Part shown: piece after piece, positions 7,036-48,437 of the stretch | How the letters are laid out: the number at the start of each line of letters is the position of its first letter | Position numbering within the stretch: position 1 is the stretch's first letter | Source: Physcomitrium patens | Lineage: Eukaryota > Streptophyta > Bryopsida > Funariales > Funariaceae | DNA: 64,000 bases | Assembly: GCF_000002425.4 (NCBI RefSeq) | Contig: NC_037256.1 | Location: 13,834,233 to 13,898,232, forward strand | Direction: 5' to 3' | Made by a program: the position numbers and the translations under genes | The notes under the pieces: generated by a model | Told to the model about the DNA's origin: nothing | Seen by the model: the letters and a program-made list of their open reading frames with translations, nothing else | The model's database searches: none

Positions 7036-7457
7036 TGTTAGGGACATAGTCTTTAGAACCTTCTAGAGACAAGTTTCTAGAACTTTCTAGAGACAAGCTT
7101 CTAGAACCTTCTAGAAGCAAGTCTTTGGAACCTTCTAAAAGCTCCTTAGTTGGTAGAAGATGTTAGGGACATAGTCCTTAGAACCTTCTAGAGATAAGTT
7201 TCTAGAACCTTCTAGAAGCAAGTCTCTGGAACCTTCTAGAAGCTTCCTAGTTGATAGAAGTTGCTTGAGAAGCTTCCTAAATAAGAGTATATATTGGAAT
7301 CGAGGCTGAAGAGTTCTTCAGTCTTGACAACACATCTCTTGGAGCTCTAGTTCACCTCTCTGGTGTTGTTCTTGTATTCATCTGATTAATCTAGTTCTTG
7401 CCAGTTCTTCTTGAACTTCTTGTTAGATCTCAAATCTGTATTTCTGTATCCATGACA
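7036..7457 (+). repeat. 5' LTR of element A
   Basis: Begins TGTTAGGGACAT and ends TGACA. U3 is packed with alternating GAA/TTC pentamers of heat-shock-element type, for example four units at 7098-7117. A TATA box lies at 7288-7295. The predicted RNA start, AGTCTTGACAA, is at 7320-7330, 32 bp from the TATA start. It is 24 bp longer than the 3' LTR because one U3 repeat unit around 7081-7104 is duplicated. Confidence 0.95.
7300..7327 (+). promoter_or_regulatory. Inverted repeat over the predicted start site, element A
   Basis: Arms TCGAGGCTGAAG (7300-7311) and CTTCAGTCTTGA (7316-7327) around the 4-nt spacer AGTT. One pair has been lost to a C-to-T change relative to element C. The right arm contains the first nucleotides of the predicted RNA. 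Confidence 0.6.
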
Positions 7458-7459
7458 GT

Positions 7460-7470
7460 TTGTCGAGACT
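7460..7470 (+). promoter_or_regulatory. Candidate self-primer binding site, element A
   Basis: TTGTCGAGACT lies 2 nt inside the 5' LTR and is complementary to the predicted RNA 5' end in the LTR (AGTCTCGACAA in the 3' LTR). The 5' LTR copy has one CpG-to-TpG mismatch. This is the arrangement known for Tf1, where the element RNA primes its own reverse transcription. No tRNA primer site is adjacent to the LTR. Confidence 0.7.
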
Positions 7471-7737
7471 TCACTCACCTCAGATATCAAAGCTAGTTTC
7501 TTCTTTGTTAGAGTGTGGATTACTCCTCTACTTGGAAGTGTACTAGCACTTTAGAGGTTGCGGATTACCCTCCTCTAAATTGATACTTCTTTTGTTACAA
7601 TATTGGAGTCTTATTGTTCTTGGAGAGAGTGGATTACCCCTTTTCTTGAAGCTCTTAAGGCATTTTAGAGGTTGCGGAGTACCCTCCTTTAAACCAATAT
7701 TGTCTTCTTGTAGAGTCATTTTTGTCCTTCTCTTAGA
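7471..7737 (+). promoter_or_regulatory. Leader of element A with repeated GGATTACCC motif
   Basis: Untranslated leader with four spaced copies of the motif GGATTACYC, at about 7515, 7560, 7629 and 7675 (two carry one substitution). They are interleaved with CCTCTA/TAGAGG complementary segments that could pair. The motif is shared with element C and, in two copies, with element B, so it may serve packaging or translation. Function is unknown. Confidence 0.5.
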
Positions 7738-8764
7738 ATGGTCGGGGGTCAAGACATTAGTATGACGGAAAGTTCAGAGTCTATGTTAGATGCTATCATG
7801 AATGCCCTCGCTACGTTATCGCAAAGAACTGCAGAGATTGAAGGAGTGGTGGCAAGGCTTCTTAATGATGGAGCATTTGGGATGGCACAATCTATGTTGT
7901 ACCAGCCTCAAACTTCTACACTGGGAGAAGCAACTTTGCCTCAGGTTCGACAAGCACTGCTGGTTCTACAACATAAGGAACCCCGAGTTAGCCTTCCGGA
8001 CAAGTTCGATGGTACACGTTCCAAGTTTTGAGGATTCATCAACCAAATCAGGTTGATAACAGTTTTACAGCCCGAACGCTATCCAATGGAGGAGTCACGT
8101 GTTGGGCTTGTTGGAACCTTACTTACAGGACAAGCTCTATCATGGTTTGCTCCTTTGTTTGAGAAACGATCGTCCATACTAAACAACTTTGAAACCTTTT
8201 TGGAGGCATTTGTGGAAGCATTTGGTGAATACGACAAGGTTCGATGGGCTACAACAAAGATCCGGTTACTACGACAAGGGATGTGTTCTACATCAGTCTA
8301 TGCATCGAACTTCAGGCAATTAGCATACGACATCAATTGGGACGAAGAAGCGTTGATGAGTCAATTCTATTGGGGTTTAAGGGACGATGTGAAGGATTTG
8401 CTGTTAACTCTTTCTGATCCGCAAATGCTCAATGAAGCTATTAGCGAAGCTGTGAAGTGCGATAACCGCCTATTTCAACATCGCCAAGACCAACGTTCAA
8501 GACAACATATGGTTTGCCACACCCCAACTATGTCGGCAAGCACCGTGAATTCACATTCAGAGGTAGAAGACATGCAAATTGATGCGGTACGTGTTAAATC
8601 TCTTACTCTAGAAGAAAAAAAGCGACGTATGGAGGAAGGTCTATACTTGTATTGTGGTGAAGAAGGCCACAAAGTTGGAAACTGCCCTAAGAAGCAAAAT
8701 CGACGTATTATCAAGACTAGGGGTGCGTTTATTCAGGAAAACAAGGATGCCCAGCCACAATACG
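7738..8764 (+). pseudogene. gag of element A, with nonsense change
   Basis: The start codon is the first Met after the leader (MVGGQDISMTESSES), equal to the start in element C. An N-terminal helix is followed by the capsid region (ALSWFAPLFEKRS, VYASNFRQLAYDINWDEEAL, SQFYWGLRDDVKDL) and a zinc knuckle at about 8648-8690. A TGA at 8029-8031 replaces the CGA seen in element C. The first Cys of the CCHC knuckle is Tyr (LYLYCGEEGHKVGNC). The gag stop present in element C is a TAC codon here, so the gag frame runs on uselessly. The product would form the virus-like particle core. Non-functional. Confidence 0.85.
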
Positions 8765-8778
8765 AACCGTGCGGCTGG
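8736..8778 (+). promoter_or_regulatory. Candidate -1 frameshift cassette, element A
   Basis: GGAAAAC (8736-8742), 8-nt spacer, then arms CCAGCCACA (8751-8759) and TGCGGCTGG (8770-8778) around a 10-nt loop. One A-C mismatch would be repaired by an ancestral G. The element C and element B copies have the same geometry. Confidence 0.55.
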
Positions 8779-11568
8779 ACAGTGAAATATTGCAACAACA
8801 ACCAGGTTCTTTTCTTTCCGCTCAACCTGCCCTTTTTTTTACAATCCCTTTGCTTATTGGCCCTCAGAAACTGAGAACCTTAGCATTATTAGATTCAGGA
8901 ACATCTGCTTGTTTCTTAGATGAAGAAGTCGCAAAGCGTCATAAGATCCCTTTAGTACAAAAATTCAAACCTATTCACGTTGAGGTCATAGATGGACGAC
9001 CTTTATTGTCTGGTAGTGTCACCCATGAATCAGAACCTATAGAAGTGACGTTTAAGAGCCATAGTAGTCATATTATTTTCAATATTATTAGAACCCCATC
9101 AAATCCTGTTATTCTTTGTCTTTCCTGGTTGGAAAAGCATAACCCATCCATAGATTGGAAGTTGCGGAAGATAATCTTTCCTACAAAACCACCTAAGAGC
9201 AAGCCTAGTAGAAAATCTTGAATAGAGAAATCTTTATTTATTGGAGCAAGAGCATTTATAAGATTGTCCAAGGAAGGCACACTGTTTGTCATTTATGCGA
9301 CTCCAACTACTGGGGAGAAGATCTCGACAGCAAGTATACCAGAGCAATATAAGGATTTTAAAGATGTATTTCAAAAGAAAAATGCCGACATACTACCAGA
9401 ACACAAACCATATGATTGCACCATAGACTTGTAGGAAGGAGCACAACCGCCTTTTGGCCCAATCTACAATCTATCGCAGACAGAGTTGGTGGAGTTGCGG
9501 AAGTACATCGACGAGAATTTAGCCAAGAACTTCATCCGTCATTCAAAATCGTCAGCTGGAGCATCCATCTTATTTGTGAAGAAGAAAGATGACTCATTGC
9601 GGATGTGCGTGGACTATCGAGGCCTCAACAAGGTAACAAAGAAGAATCGTTATCCGTTACCCTTGATTTTTGGTCTCTTAGAACAACTTGGACGTGCAAG
9701 GATCTTTACAAAAATTGATCTAAGGGGAGCTTACAACCTCGTACGAATCAGGGAAGGAGATGAGTGGAAGACAGCGTTCCATACAAGGTATGGCCATTTT
9801 GAGTATAATGTCATGCCCTTTGGTCTTACCAATGCTCCAGTGGTCTTTCAACATATGATGAATGATATTTTCCGAGAGCACCTTGATGATTTTGTTGTCA
9901 TCTATTTAGATGATATTTTGATATTCTCCAAAAATGAGGAAGAGCATAAAAAAAACATTCGTTTAGTCTTGGAGAAACTACGCGAGCGAGGACTATATGC
10001 CAAGTTGGAGAAGTATTTATTTCACTAAATAGAAATGGAGTTTTTGGGATTTGTTGCGACTACGAAAGGCTTGAAGATGGACCCCAAGAAGGTAGAAGCA
10101 ATCGTGTCTTGGGAGGTTCCGAAGATGGTTAGAGACGTACAATGCTTTCTTGGTTTTGCTAACTTCTATCGGATCTTTATCAAAAATTACTCTCAAGTTG
10201 CTGCTCCCTTCACTCAGTTGACATGCAAGGATAAGCTGGAATGGGGACCTCTAGCAGAGAAGGCATTTCAAGACCTGAAGACCGCATTTACTACGGCTCC
10301 AATCTTGGTACATCCAGACTTTACAAAGGCCTTTTATTTAGAAGCTGATGCTTCGGATTTTGCTTTAAGAGCTGTACTTTCACAAATGGGAGAAGACAAG
10401 AAGCTCCATCCAGTTGCATTCTATTCTCGAAAGTTCTCTACTGCTAAAATCAATTATGAGATCCACGATAAGGAACTTCTTGCTATAGTGGATTCTTTCC
10501 AAGAATGGCGTCACTTTCTTGAAGGAGCTGCACATCTAGTGACCGTATATACAGATCACAAGAATTTGGAGTATTTCATGTCGGCTCGAGTTCTAAATCG
10601 ACGTCAAGCTCGGTGGAGTATGTTGCTATCTAGGTTTGATTTTGTTATCACTTATCAATCTTGAAAGCAGCAAGGCCTATCTGATGCCTTATCGAAGAGA
10701 TCGTATCTTGTACCAAAGGCTGGAGAAGTAGCGTTTGATCAACAATGCACGACATTGTTGAAGCCAAAGTAATTTCAGCTTTGCGCTACTATTTTGCCAA
10801 TTGATGCTGACTTCCTGAATCAGGTACGTGCAGTGACCATTGAAGATTGTGTAGCCATTGATATTAAGCAGCATGCCAATGACGACAAGTTCAAGGTGGA
10901 GGGAGATCTTTTATACTTTGAAGAGTGGTTATATATCCCAAAAGGACCAGCACGACTCCGAGTTCTTCAATCTCGCCACGATTTTCCAACTGCGGGACAT
11001 TTTGGATTCAACAAGACCTTAGAGTTTATTTCTCGAGATTTTTGGTGGCCCCAAATGTGGAAGGATGTGAAAGATTTTGTCCTCTCCTGTGACATCTGTT
11101 CAACATCCAAGAATCCTCGACATCGCCCTTATGGACTCTTACAGCCATTGCCGATTCTACGTCGACCATGGTCTTCAATTTCCATGGACTTCATCACGGA
11201 CTTGCCATCATCGAACTCATTTGATAGCATCTTTGTTGTGGTAGATCAACTTAAAAAAATGGCGCACTTTGTCTTTTGCAAGAAGACATCATCTAGTGAA
11301 GTCACAGCAAGGCTCTTTCTCAATAATGTGTATCGTTATCATAGACTACCAGATGATTTCATATCAGATCGAGGAACCCAGTTCGTATCAAAGTTTTGGA
11401 GATCTCTCTTTGAGATACTGAAAGTGGATATCAAGCTTTCTTCAGCTTTTCATCCTCAAACTGACGGCCAAACGAAACGGGGGAACCAAGTCTTGAAAGA
11501 ATACTTACGATGGAGTATCAACTATCAGCAAGACGATTGGACCACATATTTGTCGCTAGCCGAATTTG
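8769..11568 (+). pseudogene. pol of element A (PR-RT-RNaseH-IN), interrupted
   Basis: Polyprotein in the -1 frame relative to gag. The protease active site reads LLDSGTSACF (about 8888-8920). RT has [19 protein letters not shown], the intact YLDD catalytic motif near 9905 and FGLTNAP. RNase H (EADASDF, NYEIHDKELLAI, TDHKNLEYF) ends near 10664. The integrase zinc domain and part of the DDE core (SMDFITDLP, SDRGTQF, then DGQTKRGNQV, the Glu-bearing TER motif changed) run to 11568, where element B interrupts. In-frame stops occur at 9219-9221, 9433-9435, 10026-10028, 10662-10664 and 10770-10772. Most equal CGA, CAA/CAG or GGA in element C. Inactive, although RT keeps its catalytic residues. Confidence 0.9.
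11564..11568. repeat. Target site duplication of element B (left)
   Basis: ATTTG before the left LTR of B; the right copy at 17942-17946 is GTTTG. Element C has GTTTG at the equivalent codon, so the left copy carries a G-to-A change. Confidence 0.85.
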
Positions 11569-12120
11569 TATCAAGGACAAAGACTCGATGAGGGAAAATA
11601 TACACAAAAAAGCTATCTCGATATAATAAGTCAAAATATAAACAAGTATGTATATTAAAAAGAAATTAGAATGGCTATTGCCACAAGACAAGAAACTAAA
11701 GACTCTTGAACCTGGACTAGGAGCAAGAAAGGAGTTGACAAGAGTGAAGAAGCCTTCACTCTTGTCTCTATATATACTATCTAACTAGGGGCTACGTGGC
11801 GACGTTCTATAGGACCTCTAATATGTGTTGACTTTGTAGGACACATGCCTTGACTTACAAGGCAAGTTTTTCATCGTGTGGGCCACATAGTTAGCTTGAT
11901 CTTCAAGCTAACAATATGTGTGGCACATGGCCAACTTGTTGACCACGTTTCTAATCCAAAAAGTCAATTAAAGACACCTATGAAGTCAAAGCAGCGTCTA
12001 TGAAGCTTCTAAGAAGCTTTCATATTAAATACTATAGAATTAACTTACTTTTACCTATTTTTACTTACTTCTACCTAATTGTATATATAATTACTAGCTT
12101 ACATGATTATGTCCGTGACA
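11569..12120 (-). repeat. 3' LTR of element B
   Basis: 552 bp. In element orientation it begins TGTCACGGAC and ends TTGATA, with the terminal TG of the plus strand changed to TA. Minus-strand TATA box at 11769-11776 and predicted RNA start at 11745 running down to 11735. Confidence 0.95.
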
Positions 12121-12123
12121 TTA

Positions 12124-12134
12124 CCCCCCCTTCT
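12124..12134 (-). promoter_or_regulatory. Polypurine tract of element B
   Basis: Reads AGAAGGGGGGG on the minus strand, three bases before the 3' LTR. This is the expected plus-strand DNA primer site and fixes the element's orientation. Confidence 0.8.
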
Positions 12135-12161
12135 AAGGACGAGTTCCACGAGGAGCGGTCA

Positions 12162-12584
12162 TCATATGTTGAGGAAATCTATGATGCGACGAATTGTATT
12201 CGCCACATACTCTGATCTTTGTTCTCTTCGAAGATGATTGATAGGGCCTCTCAACCATCGGTAGTGTCCCATACCAGGGCGGGAAGACCACCCAGTTATT
12301 TGATCATTGTTGAGGCCTTCGTAACTTCCTTCGAATAGAATATTTGGAACACCATCAGGAGTTGTTCCTACCTCTAGCAAAATCACCAAACATCGGGAGA
12401 CCCTTCCCAAATCGTGATACCAAACGCGTTGTATCTCACCATCTATTCGAGGAAGAACATGTCGTTCTTGAAGATCTTCATCTCGATTGCGTCCTCTTGA
12501 AGGTTGTGACAATCGTAATGTCTCGTCCGGTAGTTCAGCAAACGAAGGTTCTTGAGTTGAATCCGTTGGTTGTTGGCTCTCCAT
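12162..12584 (-). CDS. Post-pol ORF of element B (unknown function)
   Basis: An intact 140-codon ORF between the chromodomain and the polypurine tract. It starts MESQQPTDST, has an SQPSRGRNRDED charged segment, a central LVILLEVG strand-like stretch and a C-terminal block GHYRWLRGPINHLRREQ followed by an IRRIIDFL helix. Elements A and C carry a homologous frame at the same place (MDSQEIDT, SRKRPRDE or equivalent, GHY-WLQG-MNHLPREQQ, IFIFL), and a trace survives in element D. There is no signal peptide or membrane segment, so it is not an envelope-like gene. I do not recognise the family. It lies about 90 bp after the chromodomain reading, in its own frame. It remains open while gag and pol here carry stops, although its short length makes chance survival possible. 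Confidence 0.8.
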   Translation of the reverse strand: MESQQPTDSTQEPSFAELPDETLRLSQPSRGRNRDEDLQERHVLPRIDGEIQRVWYHDLGRVSRCLVILLEVGTTPDGVPNILFEGSYEGLNNDQITGWSSRPGMGHYRWLRGPINHLRREQRSEYVANTIRRIIDFLNI

Positions 12585-12669
12585 CTAATTAGCGTCAAAA
12601 ATGCAAAGAAGTTACAAACAAGGATAGGAAATTGAATGTTATCTTGTCTCAATCTTGTCTCTTTTATAA

Positions 12670-13305
12670 GAGAGATTTTCATCTTGGTTTTGATGGATGT
12701 CGTTGATGAAAAACTTTGACTTTAGCTGATGCATTTGTTAGATTCTTGGATGGCTCCCATGTGCGTTCACTAATATCATATCCGCGTCAATGAACAAGAT
12801 ATTCCAGCTTATTTCGGCGCCGCCTTGAGTCTAATATCTCTTCCACCTCAAATTCTTCATTATTATCTACTTCTGTAGGAGGCGGTGGCATTTGTCTTTT
12901 TCCTTGTATATCCACTATCTTATATGGTTCAAGAAGAGACATGTGGAATACAGGATGGATCTTCATTGACTCTGGTAGATGTAACCGATATGCAACTGGG
13001 TTGATCTGTTCAGAAACAGAAAAGGGGCTAAGCCTACGATAGTCCAACTTGTCACAAGGTCGAGTAGTCTTGATATTGCGACGAAGTAGCCATACCTTAT
13101 CACCCACGTTGATTTGTGGTTGCTCCTTATGATATAGATCTGCATTTATCTTTTGTCGTTCTTGAGCTTCCTTCAATTGCGTCTTCATTATTGCATGTAA
13201 CTCTGACAACCGATTTGCCATATCTTCTGCTGCAGGATTATCAACTTTTGAAAAATCAAAAGTATCAAGTTGTGGATGATAGCCATAATTGGCAAAGAAA
13301 GGTGT
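12670..13305 (-). pseudogene. Integrase C-terminus and chromodomain, element B
   Basis: The integrase tail has KVWLLRRNIKTTRPCDKLDY, the GPF-like SPFSV segment, [14 protein letters not shown] and HPVFHMSLLEPY, as in other chromoviruses. The chromodomain reads EEFEVEEILDSRRRRNKLEY, then a TGA where the Trp of VHWRGYD should be, then ERTWEP. Chromodomains bind methylated histone H3 tails and are thought to steer integration. The stop at about 12784-12786 is a TGG-to-TGA change. A further stop near 13304-13306 separates this stretch from the integrase core. Confidence 0.85.
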
Positions 13306-13782
13306 TTATTGCATGGAAGAATGTACCGTATTATTATAAGCAAACTCTGCCAATGGCAGAAGAGTTGTCCAATCATCTTGTTGGTAGTTGATAGTACACC
13401 TTAAATATTGCTCCAAGACTTGGTTTACGCGCTCTGTTTGTCCATCAGTTTGAGGATGGAAAGCCAAAGATAGCTTTATGTCCACTTTTAAAATCTTGAA
13501 AAGGGTCCTCCAAAATCTTGATACAAATTGAGTTCCCCTATCCGTTATGATATCTTTAGGTAATCCATGATAGCGATAGATATTATCAATGAAAAGCTTA
13601 GCTGTTTCTTTACCTGTGATAGATTTTGTACATAGCACAAAATGTACCATCTTGGTGAAACGATCTACTATCACAAATATAGAATCATAAGATCTTGAGC
13701 TTGGGAGATTTGTGATGAAATCCATAGAAATAGAAGACCATGGTTGTTGTGGTATAGGTAATGGCTGAAGAAGTCCGTAAGG
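13306..13782 (-). pseudogene. Integrase core, element B
   Basis: Carries the three catalytic positions: SMDFITNLP-like (13725 downward), TDRGTQF, and DGQTERVNQ with the catalytic Glu. It is separated from the upstream pol frame by a TGA at 13783-13785 (CGA in elements A and C: PRHRPYG). It ends at a TAA at the codon after HSSMQ. Confidence 0.85.
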
Positions 13783-16193
13783 TCAATGACGAGGAATTTT
13801 TGATCTTGAACAAATATCACAAGATTGTACAAAGTCTTTGACTGACTTCCACATTTGTGGCCACCAAAAATCTCTTGATATGAGTTCCAAAGTCTTATTA
13901 TATCCAAAGTGCCCTGCTGCTGGAAAGTCATGACGTGCTTGAAGAACACGTAAACGTGCTTCTTCTTCTGGAACATATAGGCATCCTTCAAAATATAATA
14001 GATTATTCTTGAACTCGAACTTAGAAGGATCATGAGACTTGAAAGAATTATTCTCGATATCATGAACAAGAGGGTCTGAGGACATACTGGACTGGATTTG
14101 CTTGAGAAAAGTTAAAACAACAGTCAATGTTGATTTCATTGCTCGGAGATGAAATTGCTCCGGTTTCAAGAGGACCGTTCTTTGTTGCTCAAAAGCTGCA
14201 TCTCCTTCTTTTGGTGCAAAATAAGAACGTCTAGATAGGGCATCGGACAAACCTTGTTGTTTTTCTGGCCGATAAGTGATAATGAACTCGAATCTTGACA
14301 AAGACATACTCCAACGAGCTTGACGATGATTCAACACGCGTACTGACATGAAATACTCGAGGTTCTTGTGATCTATATATACAATGACTAGACTAGAAGC
14401 GCCTTCTAGATAATGATGCCATTCTTGAAAGGAATCCACGATCGCAAGAAGTTCTTTATTGTGGATCTCATAATTGATCTCGGCTGCTGAGAATTTTCTT
14501 GAATGAAAAGCTATTGGATGAAGTTTGTCATCTGATCCCATTTGTGATAAAACTGCACCCAAGACAAAATCTGATGCATCTGTTTCCATAAAAAATGCCT
14601 TCGAAAAGTCAACACAATATAAGACTGGTGCAGAGACAAACGATGTCTTCAAGGCTTCAAATACTGCTTCCGCTTCTTGATTCCATTGGAATTTATCTTT
14701 ACTAGTCAAGCTTGTAAGTGGAGCTGCAACTCGTGAGAAATCTTTGATGAAGATCCGATAGTAATTGGCAAATCCCAAGAAACATTGGACATCTCTTACT
14801 GTCCTTGGAATCTTCCAATCCATGATTGTTTGGACTTTCTTAGAATCCATCATGAGACCATCATTTGAAATGATGTATCCTAAAAAGTCAACTTGAGTAG
14901 TGTGAAATATACACTTTTCCATCTTGACGTACAATCCTGCATCTCTAAGTTTTTGTAATACTTGACGAACATGTATTTCATATTCTTCGACGTTCTTAGA
15001 ATAGATCAGGATATCGTCTAGATAGCAGACGACAAAATTGTCTAAGAATTCATGAAATACATCATTCATGAGATGTTGAAAAGCAGCTGGTGCATTCGTG
15101 AGTCCAAAGGGCATGACATTATATTCGAAATGTCCATACCTGGTTCGAAACGCAGTCTTCCATTCATCTCCTTCTTTGATCCGTACTAGATTATATGCTC
15201 CTCTTAGATCTATTTTTGTATAGATCTTAGCTTGATTCAACTGGTCAAGGAGTCCTGATATCAAAGGTAATGGATACCTGTTCTTGATTGTGATCTTGTT
15301 GAGTCCTCGATAATCAACACACATTCGTAAAGATCCATCTTTTTTCTTTACGAATAGAATTAGAGCTCCTGCTGGAGATTTTGAATGGCGTATGAAATTC
15401 TTTGCTAAATTCTCGTCAATATATGTCTTGAGTTCAGCCATCTCATCTTGCGATAAACTGTAAATTGGTCCAAATGGTGGCTGAGTTCCTTCCTTGAGGT
15501 CGATTGAACAATCATATGGGCGATGCTCAAGAAGAATATCTGCATTCTTTTTCTCAAAAACGTCTTGGTACTCCTGATATTGGCTTGGAATGCCACTTGA
15601 AGTCTTTACGTTTTCAGAAATAGGTGCAGCATAAATAGCAAAAGTTGATCCTTCTTTTGCTGCGTGTATAAATACTTTTGCACCTATCAGTACGGGTTTT
15701 ACTATACTAGACTTATAATTTTTTACTTGGTTGGTAGAAGTATTAATAACGCTCTGGAAAAAGTCAAGTTTACTCGAATTCCAATCTATTTGAGGGTTAT
15801 ATTTTTCTAGCCAGGATAAACCTAAAATAACTGGATTGGATGGAGATTTAATTATGTTAAAAGCTATGCAGCTATCATGACCGTCTATTGTTACTTTTAT
15901 AGGATGAGTTTCATGAGTGACATCTCCAGAAGATAAGGGACGACCATCTATGACTTCTACATGTACTGGTTTAGGTTTCTGTATAAAAGGTATTTTACGA
16001 CTTTTAACAAATTTTTCATCTAAAAAACATGCTGAGGCTCCCGAATCTAATAAAGCAGAGGCTTTGTAATTCTTAGGTCCTAAATATAAGTCTATTATAA
16101 AACAAGAAGAGGGTTGTGAGGAGAGGATAGGACCTTCATTAGGAATTGTACAAGGTTCCAGCTGCACGGTCCCTATTGCAGCTGGACGAATCC
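13783..16193 (-). pseudogene. pol of element B: protease to integrase zinc domain
   Basis: A single open stretch of almost 800 codons. Protease active site ALLDSGASACFLDEK near 16030-16070. RT with [33 protein letters not shown] and an intact YLDD (about 15020). RNase H with ETDASDF, EIHNKELLAI and DHKNLEYF. Integrase zinc finger with ARHDFPAAGHFGYNKT and CDICSRSK. It has no internal Met suited to initiation near the front: the gag and pol frames overlap and pol is -1 to gag. It ends at a nonsense codon within integrase. Best preserved pol in the window apart from that; RT and RNase H look catalytically intact. Confidence 0.92.
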
Positions 16194-16200
16194 GTTTTCC
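16158..16200 (-). promoter_or_regulatory. Candidate -1 frameshift cassette, element B
   Basis: On the minus strand: GGAAAAC (16200-16194), an 8-nt spacer, then perfect 9-bp arms CCAGCTGCA (16185-16177) and TGCAGCTGG (16166-16158) around a 10-nt loop that contains the gag stop TAG. A slip of -1 at GAA-AAC leads directly into the open pol frame. Same spacing as in elements A and C. Confidence 0.65.
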
Positions 16201-17178
16201 GACATGTTGTCTTTTTTGACCGCCGTACCCCTCATTTTATAGTTGCGTCGTTTCTTTGGACAATGTTGAGCAGTGTGCTTAGGTTCTCCGCAATATAAAC
16301 ATAATCCTTCTTGACGACGACAAATCTTTTCTTGCTTAGTTAGGGATTTAAAACGTACCGCGTCAATTTGCATGTCTTCTACTTCTGAATGTACGTTTGA
16401 CAAAGATGTTGATGTTGCCATTGAGTAATAATGTTGAGGTTCCTGTGAATGATTTTCGGATCAAAATTCGAAAAGTCGATTATCACATTTTATCGCAAAA
16501 TCGATTGCTTGACTCAAAGTTTGAGGATCAGGTAAGTTGAGCATCAATTTCTTTACTTCGTATTGCAATCCATAAAGAAATTGACTGATGAGTGCAACAT
16601 CATCCCACTTGATGTCAATTGCAAGTTGTCAAAAATTGTGAAGCATACACTGTTACAGAGCGATTTCCTTGTCGCAGAATTTGGATCTTATTTGTTGCAA
16701 CACGAGTTGCATCGTGTTCACCATACATAGATCGAAAATCCGCCAAAAAAGCTTCCAAATTGTCCAATATTGGATTTCGTTGTTCAAGAAAAGACGAAAA
16801 CCACGATAATGCAGAACCAGAAAGTAGAGTGCCAATAAACCTGACTTGTGATCCTGGAGTTGGATAGCTTTGCGGTTGAAGTTCAATTGCCAATTGTACT
16901 TGATTGATGAACCCTCGAAACTTTGATCTCGTACCATCAAATTTCTAGGATAAGGTAATTCTTGCTTCTCTAGTGCTTACAGGGTGTTGTACAATTGGAG
17001 AAGGAACGTGATTTGTTGTAGATGTTGAAGCAGCTCCAATCATCTCTATATCCCCACTTTCTACTATTCTTGTTCTTTCCTATGTTGGTGAATTGAGTTG
17101 ATGCATCGCAAGCATTAACTCCCTCATTTGCTCTTGCATTTGTGCCATTGCACTCTTTATTTCAACAAGCTCTGCCAT
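16173..17178 (-). pseudogene. gag of element B, with stops and a frameshift
   Basis: Starts MAELVEIKSAMAQMQEQMRE at 17178, a coiled-coil-like helix. Capsid segments: KFDGTRSKFRGFINQV, GTLLSGSALSWFSSFLEQRN, VTVYASQF. The zinc knuckle CLYCGEPKHTAQHC (about 16260-16300) keeps all four CCHC ligands. Stops lie after LNSPT and just before KFDGT, and a 1-nt indel near 16630 shifts the frame at YASQF. The gag stop TAG sits in the loop of the frameshift cassette. Confidence 0.85.
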
Positions 17179-17376
17179 AATGACACTAAGAAGAAAAATT
17201 TGTTTGATACTGCTCAAGACAAAAGAAAAGAAAGACTTGATAACAAAGAAGATACTAAGAACAATATCAGTTTAGAAGTGGGTAATCCGCAAACTTCTAA
17301 TACGCTTATGTCTTGTCAAGAGAAAGGGGTAATCCACTCTTACTCAAGAAAAATAAAGCTCTGATATCGTAAGTGT
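17179..17376 (-). promoter_or_regulatory. Leader of element B with GGATTACCC motifs
   Basis: Two copies of GGATTACCC on the minus strand (plus-strand 17280-17288 and 17327-17335), shared with the leaders of A and C despite otherwise different sequence. A GATATCAGAGC block (17358-17368) is also shared with element C and resembles a displaced tRNA-iMet primer site. Confidence 0.5.
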
Positions 17377-17387
17377 ACTCTTGTCAA
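17377..17387 (-). promoter_or_regulatory. Candidate self-primer binding site, element B
   Basis: Minus strand TTGACAAGAGT, 2 nt inside the 5' LTR. It is an 11/11 complement of the predicted RNA 5' end ACTCTTGTCAA (plus-strand 17556-17566). Different sequence from A/C but identical geometry. Confidence 0.75.
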
Positions 17388-17389
17388 TC

Positions 17390-17941
17390 TGTCAAGGACA
17401 AAGACTCGATGAGGGAAAATATACACAAAAAGGCTATCTCGATATAATAAGTCAAAATATAAAAAAGTATGTATATTAAAAAGAAACTGGAATGGCTATT
17501 GCCACAAGACAAGAAACTGAAGACTCTTGAACCTGGACTAAGAGCAAAAAAGGAGTTGACAAGAGTGAAGAAGCCTTCACTCTTGTCTCTATATATACTA
17601 TCTAACTAGAGGCTACGTGGCGACGTTCTATAGGACCTCTAATATGTGTTGACTTTGTAGGACACATGCCTTGACTTACAAGGCAAGTTTTTCATCGTGT
17701 GGGCCACATAGTTAGCTTGATCTTCAAGCTAACAACATGTGTGGCACATGGCCAACTTGTTGACCATGTTTCTAATCCAAAAAGTCAATTAAAGACACCT
17801 ATGAAGTCAAAGCAGCGTCTACGAAGTTTCTAGGAAGCTTCTATATTAAATATTATAGAATTAACTTATTTTTATCTACTTTTACTTACTTCTACCTATT
17901 TCTATATGTAATTATTAGCTTACATGATTATGGCCGTGACA
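17390..17941 (-). repeat. 5' LTR of element B
   Basis: 552 bp, TGTCACGG to CCTTGACA in element orientation. Minus-strand TATATATA at 17597-17590; predicted RNA start at 17566, 31 bp away. A perfect 13-bp inverted repeat (17558-17570 and 17575-17587, 4-nt spacer) lies over the start. Confidence 0.95.
17558..17587 (-). promoter_or_regulatory. Inverted repeat over the predicted start site, element B
   Basis: Arms GACAAGAGTGAAG and CTTCACTCTTGTC with a 4-nt spacer, perfect over 13 bp. The start-proximal arm includes the beginning of the self-primer. Elements A and C have the same design with unrelated sequence. Confidence 0.7.
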
Positions 17942-18617
17942 GTTTGCATATAACAACACCCTCCATGCGTCGACTCAATACACACCATTCTTTTCCAACT
18001 ATGGGTATCATCCGAAGCTTGATTTATTGAGTCCATCAACAAATAACAATCCAGGAGTTGAAGGATTTGCGAAACAACTATCAAAGCTTCAAAATACGTT
18101 AAAGCTTCAATTACAATCCGCTCAAGAATCCTACAAGGCGTCTGCAGATAGATTTCGGAATCAAGCACCTACTTTCAAAATTGGAGATAAAGCATGGCTT
18201 CTTCGACAGAATATCAAGACTAAGCGATTGTGTGATAAGTTGGACTATCGAAGATTGGGACCATTTATCATCCAGAAGCAAATCAATCCAGTGGCGTACT
18301 GTTTGGAATTACCGGCTTCTATGAAGGTACATCCAATCTTTCATGTTTCTCTGTTGGAGCCTTATGGAGAGTCGTCTTTTCCTGGAAGAGTGCAATATCC
18401 GCCATCTAGTATTGAGATCGAGAACCATGAGGAATATAAGGTTGAAAAGGTACTGGATTCATGGCGAAGGTGGAGCAAGTTGGAGTATCTTGTTCATTGG
18501 TGCGGCTACGACATTAATGAGCGAACGTGGGAGCTAGCTGAAAATCTTGCCAATGCGCCACAAAAGGTACAGGAGTTTCATCAACAACATCCCGATAAAC
18601 CTAAATCAATTCGATGA
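17942..18617 (+). pseudogene. Integrase C-terminus and chromodomain, element A
   Basis: Continues the integrase of A exactly after element B: FAYNNTLHAS, then the KAWLLRQNIKTKRLCDKLDY tail, [26 protein letters not shown], and a chromodomain [40 protein letters not shown]. The Tyr, Trp and Tyr expected in the methyl-lysine cage are present. This portion is open to its natural stop at 18615-18617, but it belongs to a broken gene. Confidence 0.9.
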
Positions 18618-18751
18618 TAGCTTCTTTCTGAAGCTTGTTCTCCCAACAATATAAGAAAAGGGGAGAGCACCAGCAAAATTCATAGTTGATGTAGTTATTT
18701 TCTCCAAGATAAAATAGAATTTTTTCAGTAGCCATAGTTTGGTCTTCTGAT

Positions 18752-19099
18752 ATGGATAGCCAAGAGATAGATACTATATCAGTCAGTTTATCTCAACCAA
18801 CTAGCTCACGAAAGTGACCTCGAGATGAAGAACCACCTGCACCATGACGACGACGAAGGATACCAAGTAACCGATCACTGGTGATTGTATTTGAGTTTGA
18901 GCTTGCTTACGATGGTCAACAAGAAGGCATATTTGTAGGACAATTTCACAATGAAGACACGGAAGTTCATGCTTGGTCAGAAGTTGAAAGAGTGGGCCAC
19001 TACTGTTGGCTTCAAGGTCCGATGAACCACTTACCTCGTGAACAACAGTTGGAGTTCATAGCAGATGTTATACGACAGATCTTCATTTTCTTGCATTAG
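18752..19099 (+). pseudogene. Post-pol ORF of element A, with two stops
   Basis: Homologue of the 140-codon ORF in element B. It starts MDSQEIDT, has an RPRDEE and Arg-rich segment that looks like a nuclear localisation signal, a LVIVFEFELAYDGQ stretch, AWSEVERVGHYCWLQGPMNH and LPREQQLEFIADVIRQIF. TGA codons at 18815-18817 and 18845-18847 interrupt it. Unknown function; it lies about 135 bp after the chromodomain stop. Confidence 0.75.
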
Positions 19100-19141
19100 T
19101 ACTGATTGATAACAACATTGCTTCTCAGAGACCTCGAAGCT

Positions 19142-19152
19142 AAAGGAGGGGA
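19142..19152 (+). promoter_or_regulatory. Polypurine tract of element A
   Basis: AAAGGAGGGGA, three bases before the 3' LTR. Confidence 0.8.
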
Positions 19153-19155
19153 TGA

Positions 19156-19553
19156 TGTTAGGGACATAGTCCTTAGAACCTTCTAGAGACAAGCTTCTAG
19201 AATCTTCTAAGAGCAAGTCTCTGGAACCTTCTAGAAGCTTCTTAGTTAGTAGAAGATGTTAGGGACATAGTTCTTAGAACCTTCTAGAGATAAGTTTCTA
19301 GAACCTTCTAGAAACAAGTCTCTGGAACCTTCTAGAAGCTTTCTAGTTGGTAAAAGTTGCTTGAGAAGCTTCCTAAATAGGAGTATATATTGGAATCGAG
19401 GCTGAAGAGTTCTTCAGTCTCGACAACACATCTCTTGGAGCTCTAGCTCACCTCTCTGATGTTGTTCTTGTATTCATCTGATTAATCTAGTTCTTGTCAG
19501 TTCTTCTTGAACTTCTTGTTAGATCTCAAATCTGTATTTCTGTGTCCGTGACA
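19156..19553 (+). repeat. 3' LTR of element A
   Basis: 398 bp, TGTTAGGGACAT to CCGTGACA, followed by the GTCAT duplication. Same heat-shock-element-like repeats, TATA box and start-site motif (AGTCTCGACAA, matching the primer site perfectly) as the 5' LTR. Confidence 0.95.
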
Positions 19554-36286: not shown

Positions 36287-36781
36287 TGTTAGGGACATAT
36301 TCCTTAGAACTTTCTAGAGAGAGGTTTCTAGAACCTTCTAGAAAACAAGCCTCTGGAACCTTCTAGAAGAGAAGCCTCTGGAACCTTTTAGAGAGAAGTT
36401 TCTAGAAGCTTCTAGAAAGGAAGTCTCTGGAATCTTCTAGAAGAGAAGTTTCTAGAAGCTTCTAGAAAGGAATCCCCTGGAACTTTCTAGAAGCTTCCTA
36501 GTTAATAAAAGTAGCTCGAGAAGTTTCTAAAACCTTCTAGAAAGGAAGCCTCTGGAACCTTCTAGAAGCTTCCTAGTTAATAGAAGTAGCTCGAGAAGCT
36601 TCCTAAGTAGGAGTATATATAGGGATCGAGGCTGAAGAGTTCTTTAGTCTTGACAACACATCTCTTGGAGTTCTAGCTCACCTTTCTGGTGTTGTTCTTG
36701 TACTCATCTGTTTAATCTAGTTCTGCCACTTCTTCTTGAACTTCTTGTTAGATTTCAAGTCTGTATTTTGTGTCCGTGACA
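36287..36781 (+). repeat. 5' LTR of element C
   Basis: 495 bp, TGTTAGGGACAT to CCGTGACA. TATATATA at 36614-36621. Predicted RNA start AGTCTTGACAA at 36646-36656, where the 3' LTR has the unmutated AGTCTCGACAA. A 12-bp inverted repeat with 4-nt spacer covers the start, as in element A. Confidence 0.97.
36325..36573 (+). promoter_or_regulatory. Array of heat-shock elements in U3 of element C
   Basis: Alternating perfect nGAAn/nTTCn pentamers: four units at 36325-36344, three at 36355-36369, five at 36394-36418, three at 36429-36443, five at 36444-36468, four at 36479-36498 and four at 36554-36573. A further run at 36519-36543 is perfect in the 3' LTR. Three contiguous alternating units already define a heat-shock factor site. 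The array ends about 40 bp upstream of the TATA box, which predicts heat-induced transcription. Confidence 0.8.
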
Positions 36782-36783
36782 GT

Positions 36784-36794
36784 TTGTCGAGACT
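36784..36794 (+). promoter_or_regulatory. Candidate self-primer binding site, element C
   Basis: TTGTCGAGACT, 2 nt after the LTR. It is an 11/11 complement of AGTCTCGACAA in the 3' LTR (42439-42449). A GATATCAGAGC block resembling a tRNA-iMet site lies further in, at 36807-36817, too far from the LTR to define its end. Confidence 0.75.
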
Positions 36795-37061
36795 ACACTA
36801 ACTTGAGATATCAGAGCTAGTTCTTTCTTAGTAGAGTGTGGATTACCCCTCTACTTGAAGGTATACTAGCATTTTTTAGAGGTTGCGGATTACCCTCCTC
36901 TAAACTGATACTTCTTCTGTTACAATATTGGAGTCTTATTCTTCTTGGAGAGAGTGGATTACCCCTCTTCTTGAAATTCTTAAGGCGTTTTATAGGTTGT
37001 GGATTACCCTCCTATAAACCAATATTGCCTCTTATAGGGTCATTTTTGTCCTTGTTTTAGA
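36795..37061 (+). promoter_or_regulatory. Leader of element C with four GGATTACCC motifs
   Basis: Copies at about 36839, 36886, 36956 and 37000, alternating with CCTCTA/TAGAGG segments that could pair. Conserved in element A and in part in element B. A short open frame through the leader only reflects these repeats. Confidence 0.55.
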
Positions 37062-38087
37062 ATGGTCGGAGGTCAAGACATTAGTATGACAGAAAGTTCG
37101 GAGTCTAAGTTAGATGCTATTATGAATGCCCTCGCTACGTTATCACAAAGAACTGCAGAGATTGAAGGAGTGGTGGCAAGGCTTCATAATGATGGAGTAT
37201 CTGGGATAGCACAATCTAAACTACACCAACGTCAAATTTTGACACTTGGAGAAACAACTTTACCTCAGGTTCGACAAGAACCACTAGTTCTACAACATAA
37301 GGAGCCTCGAGTTAGCCTTCCAGATAAGTTTGATGGAACACGTTCCAAGTTTCGAGGATTCGTCAATCAAATCAGGTTGATAACAGTTTTACAGTCCGAA
37401 CGATATCCAACGGAGGAGTCACGTGTTGGGCTTGTTGGAACCTTACTTACGGGTCAAGCTCTATCATGGTTTGCTCCTTTGTTTGAGAAACGATCATCCA
37501 TATTAAACAACTTCGAAACCTTTTTGAAAGCATTTGCGGAAGCATTTGGTGAACACCATAAGGTTCGATGGGCTACAACAAAGATCCGGTCGCTACGACA
37601 GGGGATGCGTTCTACATCAGTCTATGCTTCGAATTTCAGGCAATTAGTATGCGACATCAATTGGGATGAAGAAGAGTTGATGAGTCAATTCTATTGGGGT
37701 TTAAGAGATGATGTGAAGGATTTGCTGTTAACTCTTCCTGATCCACGAACGCTCAATGTAGCCATTAGCCAAGTCGTGAAGTGCGATAATCGCCTATTCC
37801 AATGTCGCCAAGACCAACGCTCAAGACAACATACAATTCGCCATGCTCCAACTATGTCGACAAGTAGTATAAATTTGCATTTAGAGGTGGAAGACATGCA
37901 AATTGATACGGTACGTATCAAATCTCTTACTATAGAAGAAAAAAAGCGACGTATGGAGGAAAATTTATGCTTGTATTGCGGTGGAGAAGGCCACAAAGTC
38001 AGAAACTACCCCAAAAAGCAAAATCGAGGCATAGTCAAGACCAGGGGAGTATTTGTTCAGGAAAACGAGGATGCCCAGCCACAGTAG
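37062..38087 (+). CDS. gag of element C
   Basis: Intact 341-codon frame. It starts MVGGQDISMTESSESKLDA, with a helical N-terminus. The capsid region carries KFDGTRSKFRGFVNQI, GTLLTGQALSWFAPLFEKRS, RSTSVYASNFRQLVCDIN and FYWGLRDDVKDLLLTLPD. The zinc knuckle at residues about 303-316 reads CLYCGGEGHKVRNY: the last Cys is Tyr (TGC to TAC), so nucleic-acid binding is probably lost. The stop TAG (38085-38087) lies in the loop of the frameshift hairpin. Gag assembles the cytoplasmic particle in which reverse transcription takes place. Confidence 0.9.
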   Translation: MVGGQDISMTESSESKLDAIMNALATLSQRTAEIEGVVARLHNDGVSGIAQSKLHQRQILTLGETTLPQVRQEPLVLQHKEPRVSLPDKFDGTRSKFRGFVNQIRLITVLQSERYPTEESRVGLVGTLLTGQALSWFAPLFEKRSSILNNFETFLKAFAEAFGEHHKVRWATTKIRSLRQGMRSTSVYASNFRQLVCDINWDEEELMSQFYWGLRDDVKDLLLTLPDPRTLNVAISQVVKCDNRLFQCRQDQRSRQHTIRHAPTMSTSSINLHLEVEDMQIDTVRIKSLTIEEKKRRMEENLCLYCGGEGHKVRNYPKKQNRGIVKTRGVFVQENEDAQPQ

Positions 38088-38102
38088 GAACCGTGCGGCT
38101 GG
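38060..38102 (+). promoter_or_regulatory. Candidate -1 frameshift cassette, element C
   Basis: GGAAAAC at 38060-38066, 8-nt spacer, arms CCAGCCACA (38075-38083) and TGCGGCTGG (38094-38102) with a 10-nt loop holding the gag stop. One A-C mismatch is explained by a CpG-to-CpA change. The -1 frame is open from the slip site into protease (RGCPATVGTVRLDN). Confidence 0.6.
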
Positions 38103-40360
38103 ACAATGAAATATCCCAACAACAATCAGGTTCCTTTCTTTCTGCCCAACCTGCCCTTTGTTTTACAATCCCTCTGTTTATCGGCCCTCAAAAACTGAGA
38201 ACTTTAGCACTACTAGACTCAGGAGCATCTGCTTGTTTTTTAGACGAAGAATTTGCAAAGCGTCATAAGATCCCTTTAGTACAAAAATCAAAACCTGTTC
38301 ACGTTGAGGTCATAGATGGGCGACCTTTATTGTCTGGTAGCATCACCCATGAATCAAAACCTATAGAAGTAACGTTTAAAGACCATAGTAGTCATATTAT
38401 TTTTAATATTATTAGAACCCCATCAAATCCTATTATTCTTGGTCTTTCTTGTTTGGAAAAACATAATCCATTGATAGATTGGAGGTTGCGGAAGATGACT
38501 TTTTCCACAAAACTACCCAAGAAAAAACCTAGTAAAAAACCTCGAAAAAAGAAATCCTTATTCATTAGAGCAAGAGCGTTTATAAGATCATCTAAGAAAG
38601 GCACTCCATTTGTCATTTATGCGGCTCCAACTACCGAGGAGAAGATCTCAACAGTAAATATACCGGAGCGATATAAAGATTTTGAAGACGTGTTTCAAAA
38701 GAAGAACGCCGACATACTACCGGAACACCAACCATATGATTGTGCCATAGACTTGCAAGAAGGAGCACAACCACCTTTTGGCCCAATCTACAATCTATCG
38801 CAAACGGAGTTGACAGAGTTACGAAAGTACATCGACGAGAATCTAGCCAAGAACTTCATTCGCCATTCAAAATCATCAGCTGGAGCACCCATCTTATTTA
38901 TGAAGAAGAAAGATGGATCATTACGGATGTGTGTGGACTATCGAGGCCTCAACAAGGTAACAAAGAAAAATCGTTACCCATTACCCTTGATTTCTAGTCT
39001 CTTAGAACAACTTGGACGTGCGAAGATCTTTACAAAAATTGATCTAAGGGGAGCTTATAATCTCGTACGAATCAAGGAAGGAGATGAGTGGAAGACAGCA
39101 TTCCGTACAAGGTATGGTCATTTCGAATATAATGTCATGCCTTTTGGTCTTACCAATGCTCCAGCGATTTTTCAACATATGATGAATGACATCTTTCGAG
39201 AACACCTCGACGATTTTGTTGTCATCTACTTGAACGATATTCTAATATTCTCTAAAAACGAGGAAGAGCATGAGGAGCATGTTCGTTTGGTCTTGGAGAA
39301 ACTACGCAAGCGAGGACTATATGCCAAATTAGAAAAGTGTTTATTTCACCAGACGGAGATGGAATTTTTGGGGTTCATTGCGACTACAGAAGGTTTGAAG
39401 ATGGACCCCAAGAAAGTAGAAGCAATCATGTCTTGGGAGGTTCCGAAGACGGTTAGAGACGTACAATGCTTTCTTGGTTTTGCTAACTTCTATCGAATCT
39501 TCATCAAGAATTATTCTCAAGTTGCTACTCCTCTCACTCGATTAACATGCAAGGATAAGTTGGAATGGGGACCTTTGGCGGAGAAGGCGTTTCAAGATTT
39601 GAAGACAGCATTTACTACAGCTCCAATTTTGGTACATCCAGACTTTACAAAGGCCTTCTATTTAGAAACTGATGCTTCAGATTTTGCTTTGGGAGCTGTG
39701 CTTTCACAAATGAGTGAAGATAAGAAGCTCCATCCAGTTGCATTCTATTCTCGGAAGTTCTCTGCTGCTGAAATCAATTATGAGATCCACGATAAGGAAC
39801 TTCTTGCTATAGTGGATTCTTTCAAAGAATGGTGTCACTTTCTTAAAGGAGCTGCACATCCAGTAATCGTATATACGGATCACAAGAATTTGGAGTATTT
39901 CATGACGGCTCGAGTTTTAAATCGGCGTCAAGCTCGGTGGAATATGTCGCTATCTAGATTCGATTTTGTTATCACTTATCGACCTGGAAGGCAGCAAGGA
40001 CTATCCGATGCTTTATCAAGGAGATCGTATCTTGCACCAAAGGCTGGAGAAGTAGCGTTTGATCAACAATGTACAACATCATTGAAGCCAGAGAGATTTC
40101 AACTTTGTGCTACTATTGTATCATTTGATGCTGACTTCCTAAACCAGGTACGTGCTATGACCATTAAAGATTCAGTAGCCATTGATATCAAGCAACGTAC
40201 CAATGACGATAAGTTCAAGGTGGAGGGAGATCTTTTATACTTTGAAGAGCGATTGTACATTCCAAAAGGACTAGCACGACTCCGAGTTCTTCAATCTTGC
40301 CATGATTTTCCAGCTGCGAGACATTTTGGATTCAATAAGACCTTGGAGCTTATTTCCTGA
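38066..40360 (+). pseudogene. pol of element C: protease, RT, RNase H, integrase start
   Basis: Open for about 765 codons in the -1 frame. Protease LALLDSGASACFLDEEF, active Asp at about 38216. RT has [30 protein letters not shown] and FGLTNAPAIF, but the catalytic YLDD reads YLND (39227-39238, GAT to AAC), which should abolish polymerase activity. RNase H ETDASDFALGAVL, EIHDKELLAI and TDHKNLEYF look intact. The integrase zinc domain begins (HDFPAARHFGFNKT, with Gly to Arg) and is cut by TGA at 40358-40360, where elements A and B have CGA. Confidence 0.93.
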
Positions 40361-41227
40361 GATTTTTGGTGGCCCCAAATGTGGAAGGATGTGAAAGATT
40401 TTGTCCTCTCTTGTGACATCTGTTCAAGATCTAAGAATCCTCGGCATCGCCCTTTTGGACTTCTACAGCCATTGCCAATTCCACGTCGACCATGGTCTTC
40501 AATTTCTATGGACTTCATCACGGACTTGCCATCATCAAACTCATTTGACAGCATCTTTGTCGTGGTAGATCGGCTTACGAAGATGGCACACTTTGTTCCT
40601 TGTAAGAAGACATCATCTAGTGAAGTCACAGCAAGACTCTTTCTCGATAATGTGTATCGATATCATGGACTACCAGATGATATCATATCAGATCGAGGTA
40701 CCCAATTCGTGTCAAAGTTTTGGAGATCTCTCTTTGGAATATTGAAGGTGGATATCAAGCTTTCTTCAGCTTTTCATCCTCAAATTGATGGCCAAACGGA
40801 ACGGGTGAACCAAGTCTTGGAGCAGTACTTACGATGCAGCATCAACTATCAGCAAGACGATTGGACTGCATATCTATCACTAGCCGAGTTTGCATATAAC
40901 AACACCCTCCATGCGTCGATTCAACAAACACCATTCTTTTCCAACTATGGGTATCATCCGAAGCTTGATTTATTGAGTCCGTCAACAAATTTCAATCCAG
41001 TAGCTGAAGGATTTGTGAAGCAACTATCAGAGCTTCAAACTATGTTGAAGCTTCAATTACAATCCGCTCAAGAATCCTATAAGATGTCTGCAGATAGATT
41101 TCGGAATCCAGCACCTACTTTCAAAGTTAGAGACAAAGCCTGGCTTCTTCGACGAAATATCAAGACCAAGCGACCATGTGATAAGTTGGACTATCGAAGA
41201 TTGGGACCATTTATCATCCAGAAGTAA
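40361..41227 (+). pseudogene. Integrase core and tail, element C
   Basis: After the TGA the frame continues: DFWWPQMWKDVKDFV, CDICSRSKNPRHRP (zinc Cys pair), SMDFITDLPSS (first catalytic Asp), SDRGTQFVSKFW (second Asp), GQTERVNQVLEQYL (Glu), AYNNTLHASI, and the tail DKAWLLRRNIKTKRPCDKLD. All three catalytic residues are present. It ends at TAA 41225-41227, a CAA in element A. Confidence 0.92.
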
Positions 41228-41563: not shown

Positions 41564-41678
41564 AGCTTCTTTCTGAAGCTTGTTCTCCCAACAATATAAG
41601 AAAAGGGGAGAGCACCAGCAAAATTCATAGTTGATGTAGTTATTTTCTCCAAGATAGATCGTAGTTTGGTCTTTTGAT

Positions 41679-42076: not shown

Positions 42077-42079
42077 TGA

Positions 42080-42574
42080 TGTTAGGGACATATTCCTTAG
42101 AACTTTCTAGAGAGAGGTTTCTAGAACCTTCTAGAAAACAAGCCTCTGGAACCTTCTAGAAGAGAAGCCTCTGGAACCTTTTAGAGAGAAGTTTCTAGAA
42201 GCTTCTAGAAAGGAAGTCTCTGGAATCTTCTAGAAGAGAAGTTTCTAGAAGCTTCTAGAAAGGAATCCCCTGGAACTTTCTAGAAGCTTCCTAGTTAATA
42301 AAAGTAGCTCGAGAAGTTTCTAGAACCTTCTAGAAAGGAAGCCTCTGGAACCTTCTAGAAGCTTCCTAGTTAATAGAAGTAGCTCGAGAAGCTTCCTAAG
42401 TAGGAGTATATATAGGGATCGAGGCTGAAGAGTTCTTCAGTCTCGACAACACATCTCTTGGAGTTCTAGCTCACCTTTCTGGTGTTGTTCTTATACTCAT
42501 CTGTTTAATCTAGTTCTGCCACTTCTGCTTGAACTTCTTGTTAGATTTCAAGTCTGTATTTTGTGTCCGTGACA
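42080..42574 (+). repeat. 3' LTR of element C
   Basis: 495 bp. Five differences from the 5' LTR by eye, four of them transitions. Intact start motif AGTCTCGACAA at 42439-42449; inverted repeat arms at 42419-42430 and 42435-42446. Confidence 0.97.
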
Positions 42575-48426: not shown

Positions 48427-48437
48427 ACTCTTATCAA
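48427..48437 (-). promoter_or_regulatory. Decayed self-primer site, element D
   Basis: Plus-strand ACTCTTATCAA, 2 nt from the LTR. It still matches the predicted RNA start of its own 5' LTR (plus-strand 48632-48642) at 9 of 11 positions. Confidence 0.55.

Follow-up and report, generated by a model that had tools for sequence, protein, structure and literature searches.

Predicted self-priming in Tcn1-like chromoviruses of Physcomitrium patens, with a primer, primer-binding site and U3/R hairpin that co-change between families

Retroelements in the window

The window, by which we mean the whole 64-kb stretch of Physcomitrium patens DNA analyzed here, contains three readable LTR elements involved in the pairing described below, designated A, B, and C. 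Two further elements, D and E, are decayed relatives of these. The layout is as follows:

7036-19553, + strand: element A (LTR repeat pair)
7036..7457, + strand: 5' LTR of element A (repeat pair)
19156..19553, + strand: 3' LTR of element A (repeat pair)
11569-17941, - strand: element B, nested within element A
17390..17941, - strand: 5' LTR of element B, 552 nt, TGTCAC...TTGACA (repeat pair and ends)
11569..12120, - strand: 3' LTR of element B, ending TTGATA, one change (repeat pair)
13783..16167, - strand: pol ORF of element B, with protease, RT, RNase H, and integrase zinc domain (Pfam)
36287-42574, + strand: element C (LTR repeat pair)
36287..36781, + strand: 5' LTR of element C, 495 nt (repeat pair)
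42080..42574, + strand: 3' LTR of element C, 495 nt (repeat pair)
37062-38087, + strand: gag ORF of element C, overlapped by the pol ORF in a different frame
37967..40360, + strand: pol ORF of element C, with protease, RT, and RNase H (Pfam)

By eye, the target-site duplications are GTCAT for element A and GATAA for element C, and the CAAA[T/C] flanks of element B resemble a 5-bp duplication with one change. By Pfam, the domains follow the Ty3/gypsy order (gag, protease, RT-RNase H, and integrase), and Ty3 was the best PDB match to the element C pol product. A C-terminal chromodomain with an aromatic cage (CHD_I) was likewise found: precomputed annotation places PF00385 in close relatives of the window elements, and visual inspection of P0001, P0003, and the interrupted-frame DNA of element C showed the cage residues Y, W, and Y at the positions known from HP1. 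In a small RT tree, whose labels came from named hits only and not from references for Tf1, sushi, or Tcn1, the window elements grouped with sequences from Batrachochytrium and frogs and split from Solanum and Closterium (support 100/99). Judged by their sequences, A, B, and C look like Tcn1-like (Tf1/sushi-type) chromoviruses, a placement in which the label "Tcn1" itself is one that we infer. A search of viral contigs for relatives of the elements found none, and a host protein search returned the window's own protein as its sole match.

The LTRs of A and C are rich in three-unit heat-shock elements of the TTCnnGAAnnTTC type. With overlaps counted, each LTR holds 6-17 of them, compared with a mean of ~0.01 in letter shuffles, and the motif count places them in these stretches:

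7075-7246: heat-shock elements, 5' LTR of element A
19195-19337: heat-shock elements, 3' LTR of element A
36326-36572: heat-shock elements, 5' LTR of element C
42119-42365: heat-shock elements, 3' LTR of element C

The same count detected no three-unit heat-shock element in the element B LTR; one or two also occur in the related loci L001, L003, L006, L026, and L061, which are introduced below.

Pairing between the predicted RNA start and the primer-binding site

In A, B, and C, the ~11 nt at the predicted 5' terminus of the element RNA are complementary to a primer-binding site (PBS) adjoining the 5' LTR. The position of +1 was assigned from its distance to the TATA box (31-33 nt) and from a C|A context. 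The relevant features are listed here:

17377..17387, - strand: element B PBS TTGACAAGAGT, with GA between LTR end and PBS (complement search)
17556..17566, - strand: element B self-primer ACTCTTGTCAA in the 5' LTR, predicted RNA nt 1-11, exact complement of the PBS
17590..17597, - strand: element B TATA box TATATATA, first T 31 nt from +1
7320..7330, + strand: element A primer AGTCTTGACAA in the 5' LTR, one G-U with the PBS, as in element C
7460..7470, + strand: element A PBS TTGTCGAGACT, 2 nt past the LTR end
36614..36621, + strand: TATA box of element C, 32 nt before +1
36646..36656, + strand: element C primer AGTCTTGACAA in the 5' LTR, with one C>T; 10 Watson-Crick pairs and one G-U with the PBS
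36784..36794, + strand: element C PBS TTGTCGAGACT, with GT between LTR end and PBS (complement search)
42439..42449, + strand: element C primer copy AGTCTCGACAA in the 3' LTR, exact complement of the PBS
48427..48437, - strand: decayed PBS TTGATAAGAGT of element D (by eye)

A sequence-only reading of this DNA had proposed that element B carries an exact 11-nt complement at its predicted RNA start, 31 nt from the TATA box, and this is borne out (17566-17556 against 17377-17387). A second copy of the element B primer is located at 11735-11745, in the 3' LTR. For element C, the proposed 11-nt pair is exact with the 3' LTR copy, and the TATA distance is 32 nt; the 5' LTR copy, in which the RNA would begin, carries one C>T and pairs with one G-U. 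Element A behaves alike, its 3' LTR copy (19416-19426) being an exact complement of the PBS. In element D, the R copies ATTCTTTTCAA and ATTCTTCTCAA face the PBS TTGATAAGAGT as a decayed pair, and the pair of element E is too decayed to count (both by eye).

One detail of that reading needs correction. It had set the PBS 2 nt inside the LTR; the 5' LTR of element B ends ...TTGACA at 17390, followed by GA and then the PBS. Because the PBS does not recur past the 3' LTR, the site lies outside the LTR, 2 nt beyond its 5' copy.

Matches to the B and C 11-mers occur three and four times in the window, respectively, against shuffled expectations of 0.03 and 0.02. Scanned blindly for an 11-mer complement plus TATA plus CA, this AT-rich DNA gave many chance matches, and A and C were missed because of the C>T in their 5' LTR primers; significance thus comes from the LTR-anchored geometry and its recurrence. 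When the leaders were folded freely, the computed probability of the primer:PBS helix was ~0.03 for B, 0.2-0.3 for C, and 0.7-1.0 for A. The leader also contains the motif ATATCAGAGC (17358-17367, - strand; 36808-36817, + strand), which resembles an initiator-Met PBS; it may be left over from priming by a tRNA, or it may contribute to an RNA fold.

Covariation between families

A scan of bacterial genome records yielded 32 contaminating retroelement loci, in which we sought an exact 11-mer pair with a TATA box 22-40 nt upstream and CA 0-4 nt before the PBS. This geometry was matched on the coding strand of 7/32 loci, on the reverse strand of 2/32, and in 3/160 shuffled loci. Six of the seven (L003, L004, L005, L006, L010, and L026) also share the arrangement CA + 2 nt + TTG; the seventh, L015, lacks it and looks like a chance match. 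One further copy with the geometry is L061, and L040, L042, L053, L057, L083, L107, L109, and L112 repeat contigs already counted. In L001, the best pairing has two mismatches and involves the LTR copy at its other end, pairing with its own 5' LTR copy appearing worse still by eye. Ten of these contigs (L001-L005, L010, L020, L026, L031, and L032) are eukaryotic-type contaminants of a cyanobacterial MAG (uncultured Trichormus), probably from a plant host. Trichormus is, we presume, the partner of the fern Azolla, from which the MAG-borne relatives may come.

The related contigs carry matched primer/PBS pairs of other sequence (AAGGCGAACAA, AAGGTGAACAA, ACTCTTGATCAA) in identical geometry, with 31-33 nt from TATA to +1 in every row giving that distance (L005 is not among these). 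In the four types B, C, L003, and L010, all 44 of 44 primer:PBS cells are Watson-Crick, and 7 of the 11 positions use at least two different Watson-Crick pairs. When partners are swapped between types, 4-8 of 11 matches are left, except for L003/L010 with 10; a single base pair, at primer nt 5, distinguishes these two, and the U3 arm described below is changed as well. L004 has its own 12-nt primer:PBS pair. Hence the earlier observation that sequence differs between families while complementarity and geometry stay the same not only holds but extends to further sequence types. As a side observation, the primer of L004 (L004:206-217) contains an internal palindrome, TTGATCAA, through which two RNAs could pair.

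Two explanations would dispense with self-priming. We consider it next to negligible that the pairing reflects chance, or shared ancestry without function. Inverted pairs of 10-12 nt are indeed common at such loci, with 10 found in 17 fungal-type regions scanned without the geometry; that scan produced no credible primer/PBS pair, and many of the contigs probably lack LTRs. Full complementarity is nevertheless kept in four changed sequence types at one fixed geometry, and it is this covariation that disfavors the chance or ancestry reading. Also improbable, if less extremely so, is priming by a host tRNA, whether it bound the 11-mer beside the LTR or the motif TATCAGAGC, which is initiator-Met-like and lies ~20-30 nt further inside. 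In favor of a tRNA, ATATCA[G/A]AGC is found in the leaders of all three elements and comes near the initiator-Met PBS TGGTATCAGAGC that is common in plants, 10/12 letters agreeing in B and C. Against it, the PBS of each of the five sequence types compared (L004 in its 12-nt form) starts TTG, whereas the CCA end of a mature tRNA needs TGG; none of these types can therefore be fitted by a mature tRNA 3' end, the point on which the sequence-only reading had proposed a check, and the TGG-initial PBS adjoining the LTR of a tRNA-primed plant chromovirus is absent from each of them. Moreover, the LTR ends 2 nt before the 11-mer and not before TATCAGAGC, and a tRNA cannot explain why the 11-mer tracks R from family to family. 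The leader motif was set aside as a displaced tRNA site, since it is missing just past the PBS in L003, L004, L005, and L006 (by eye). Self-priming by the element's own RNA thus remains the preferred reading.

A U3/R hairpin that includes the primer

The primer has a second pairing partner. In a hairpin with a four-base loop it supplies the 3' arm, and the 5' arm lies in U3 between the TATA box and +1:

17558..17587, - strand: element B hairpin, with U3 arm GACAAGAGTGAAG (17575-17587), loop GCTT, and arm CTTC|ACTCTTGTC; MFE -21.3, z -5.2, 0/200 shuffles as low
42419..42446, + strand: element C hairpin, 3' LTR, with TCGAGGCTGAAG, loop AGTT, and CTTC|AGTCTCGA; MFE -18.9, z -4.4

Pairing joins the U3 arm to roughly nt 1-8/9 of the primer and spans the U3/R border. 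The structure was found in A, B, C, L003, L005, L006, L010, L026, and L061. It is the LTR's strongest local fold: the five lowest 36-nt segments listed for the B, C, and A LTRs include it without exception. In 11 of 12 rows, z ranges from -3.8 to -7.6, with at most 1/200 shuffles as low; the exception is L004 (z +1.1), and because this family has no hairpin, the hairpin is not essential. Its arms co-change with primer and PBS between families: across nine R positions in the four types, 33/36 cells are Watson-Crick, one is G-U, and two are unpaired.

Among 69 distinct B-type copies, 786/897 stem cells are Watson-Crick, 25 are G-U, and 86 are unpaired, the last peaking at R nt 7, a position at which many copies entered the set as chosen variants. 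The arms score 0.92 and 0.99 for conservation, the loop 0.82, R 0.94, and +12..+25 0.95, so within the B family the arms are no better kept than +12..+25.

Cofolding suggests what the hairpin might do. In all 12 hairpin rows, computed primer:PBS pairing was 0.895-0.979 for RNA beginning at +1, versus 0.00-0.25 when the U3 arm was included; for the hairpin-less L004 the values were 0.92 and 0.93. Because this modeled pairing collapses with the U3 arm and is unchanged in L004, we tentatively suggest that the hairpin may mask the primer in RNA containing U3.

Variation among copies of one family

The genome of the window (470.4 Mb, 101 contigs) was searched for further copies. A pattern of LTR end, PBS, and leader matched 2541 sites (1290+1251), compared with none for the backward pattern. 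Primer and PBS are exact complements in 13/20 C-type copies (20 drawn from the best 40 matches) and in 16/20 B-type copies picked for a consensus PBS, 19 of the latter 20 retaining at least 8/9 hairpin pairs. Among 20 copies picked for a variant PBS, a compensating R change was seen in 0/20, with pairing still complete in five when G-U is counted; in a further 20, an exact R match was seen in 0/19 with readable R (L141 being unreadable), and 1/19 pairs via G-U. The converse set comprised B-type LTRs with the R variants A[CT]TCTTCTCAA, which occur at 87 sites. Forty of these were fetched and 17 had a script-readable PBS, L205 being an eighteenth; the matching PBS base was present in 1/17, an exact match in 0/17, and a compensated U3 arm in 1/17 (L197). 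Compensation inside families, which had been expected, was thus not found in these variant-PBS and variant-R sets. The covariation anticipated genome-wide by the sequence-only reading is accordingly present between families and fails among within-family variants.

One B subfamily has the PBS TTGAGAAGAGT with an unchanged R, ACTCTTGTCAA, giving an internal G.G mismatch (10/11 paired). Its eight copies, on seven contigs, are 95-99% alike, and the same PBS occurs in the diverged backgrounds L137, L148, and L151. Given the spread of this subfamily, 10/11 pairing may suffice, or the PBS may be inheritable from the template. The pair formed by primer nt 7 and PBS nt 5 is recurrently altered on either side, usually not both together: R has G>C at the 87 LTR sites, and the dispersed subfamily has C>G in its PBS. 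Separately, L116/L117 and L130/L131 (contig C1) are pairs of oppositely oriented copies that share a variant PBS; L130 equals L131 over 326 nt, which could reflect an inverted duplication or an assembly effect.

A tree was built from 20 close copies, namely the eight with G, the 10 most alike of the 20 consensus-PBS copies, L117, and element B. A single G clade was rejected (p-AU 0.0003), and the scatter of the PBS allele is consistent with a PBS that is rewritten by copying of the primer. On one reading, progeny would take their PBS from the parent's 5' primer and their R from the parent's 3' LTR.

Both the rewriting and the masking interpretations face competitors. Ordinary recombination or gene conversion between copies may, at somewhat less than even odds, account for the mismatched PBS TTGAGAAGAGT and its scatter in place of primer copying: its presence in three diverged backgrounds is in keeping with such exchange, as is the weak resolution of a tree built on ~300-nt fragments (0/17 inner branches starred). 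On the other hand, PBS position 5 requires five changes on this tree, whereas the 11 other informative sites require one or two each, and the PBS label is spread over the tree much as it is after shuffling (107/500 shuffles as low). As for the hairpin, it could instead serve transcription, strand transfer, or the formation of 3' ends, for example by guiding the choice of start site or by folding the RNA 3' end, a possibility that we hold as tentatively as masking itself. It has in its favor the fixed place of the hairpin between TATA and +1 and the conservation among the 69 B copies, where the loop is least conserved and the arms are kept, though no better than nearby R. A DNA-binding site, however, would keep its sequence, whereas the arms co-change between families, and in the cofolding the primer becomes far less available in every case but that of the family lacking the hairpin. 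A role in strand transfer stays plausible all the same.

Proposed mechanism

What the sequences show is pairing at a fixed geometry that covaries from family to family. This supports Tf1-type self-priming with co-changing primer and primer site, and we put the probability that A, B, and C begin reverse transcription with their own RNA at about 85%. By this model, RNA polymerase II would start at the A 31-33 nt past the TATA box, RNA nt 1-11 would fold back on the PBS 2 nt past the 5' LTR, and the element's RNase H would cut after nt 11, as for Tf1. The released 11-mer would then prime minus-strand DNA, and the plus strand would later copy the primer, tending to rewrite the PBS.

Each self-priming RNA contains two primer copies, and we know of no explanation for the use of the 5' copy alone. 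The U3-dependent hairpin, if it acts as modeled, would answer this question. Because transcription would start inside the hairpin, only a genuine RNA 5' end would lack the blocking arm: RNA from +1 would present a free primer, whereas in RNA with U3, such as the 3' LTR of genomic RNA or read-through transcripts, the primer would be masked, confining its use to true 5' ends. More speculatively, and with a fuller scheme that we regard as rather unlikely as a whole, the hairpin would be a built-in lock telling the usable 5' primer from the 3' LTR copy and read-through RNA; primer, PBS, and lock arm would form a three-way coupled set, and the PBS, partly rewritten each cycle, would record the parent's 5' LTR. 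The thousands of copies in the genome offer a natural test of such rewriting.

Comparison with known systems

Within Physcomitrium patens, the abundant gypsy elements RLG1 and RLG2 have been described, RLG1 having a chromodomain and being heat-repressed and RLG2 being heat-induced (PMC7466625). Going by the portions of that description consulted, A, B, and C resemble these elements, a likeness of description with the names unmatched.

The closest mechanistic parallel is the Tf1/sushi group of fission yeast, other fungi, and vertebrates, in which, according to the parts of the reports consulted, the first 11 nt of the RNA complement a PBS just past the 5' LTR, as here (PMC7175516; PMC10085805), and the Tf1 primer is cleaved after nt 11 (PMC7175516). 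That group also shares the chromodomain, and its overlapping gag and pol frames are matched in element C. The folds described for the two systems differ. In the "pretzel" described for Tf1, as far as the consulted text goes, neighbors of the PBS form two further duplexes with LTR sequence downstream of the primer, whereas in the hairpin here the primer pairs with U3 sequence upstream of +1. No extra "pretzel" duplex is common to the window elements: C has a 7-nt CTAGCTC/GAGCTAG (by eye) and B only 5 nt.

Among non-seed plants, SM-Tcn1 of Selaginella belongs to the Tcn1 clade like the elements described here, and the consulted part of its description reports no sign of self-priming (Novikova et al., 2010; PMC2864245). 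Conversely, according to the sections consulted of a later survey, most plant chromoviruses of the Tcn1 clade are predicted to self-prime, and so is the copia lineage TAR (Neumann et al., 2019; PMC6317226). The suggestion in the sequence-only reading that self-priming would be new to plants must consequently be withdrawn, this being already in print as a prediction; the part that we did not find described is the hairpin, since the open-access literature searched held no account of a U3/R primer hairpin with three-way covariation. The same sections of the survey give neither primer:PBS sequences nor a test for covariation, and they mention no hairpin at the U3/R border. The moss and club-moss Tcn1-clade chromoviruses covered there share with A, B, and C the clade, the aromatic-cage chromodomain, and predicted self-priming (Neumann et al., 2019). 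On that partial comparison, the window elements probably belong to this group of plant chromoviruses and may be among those surveyed.
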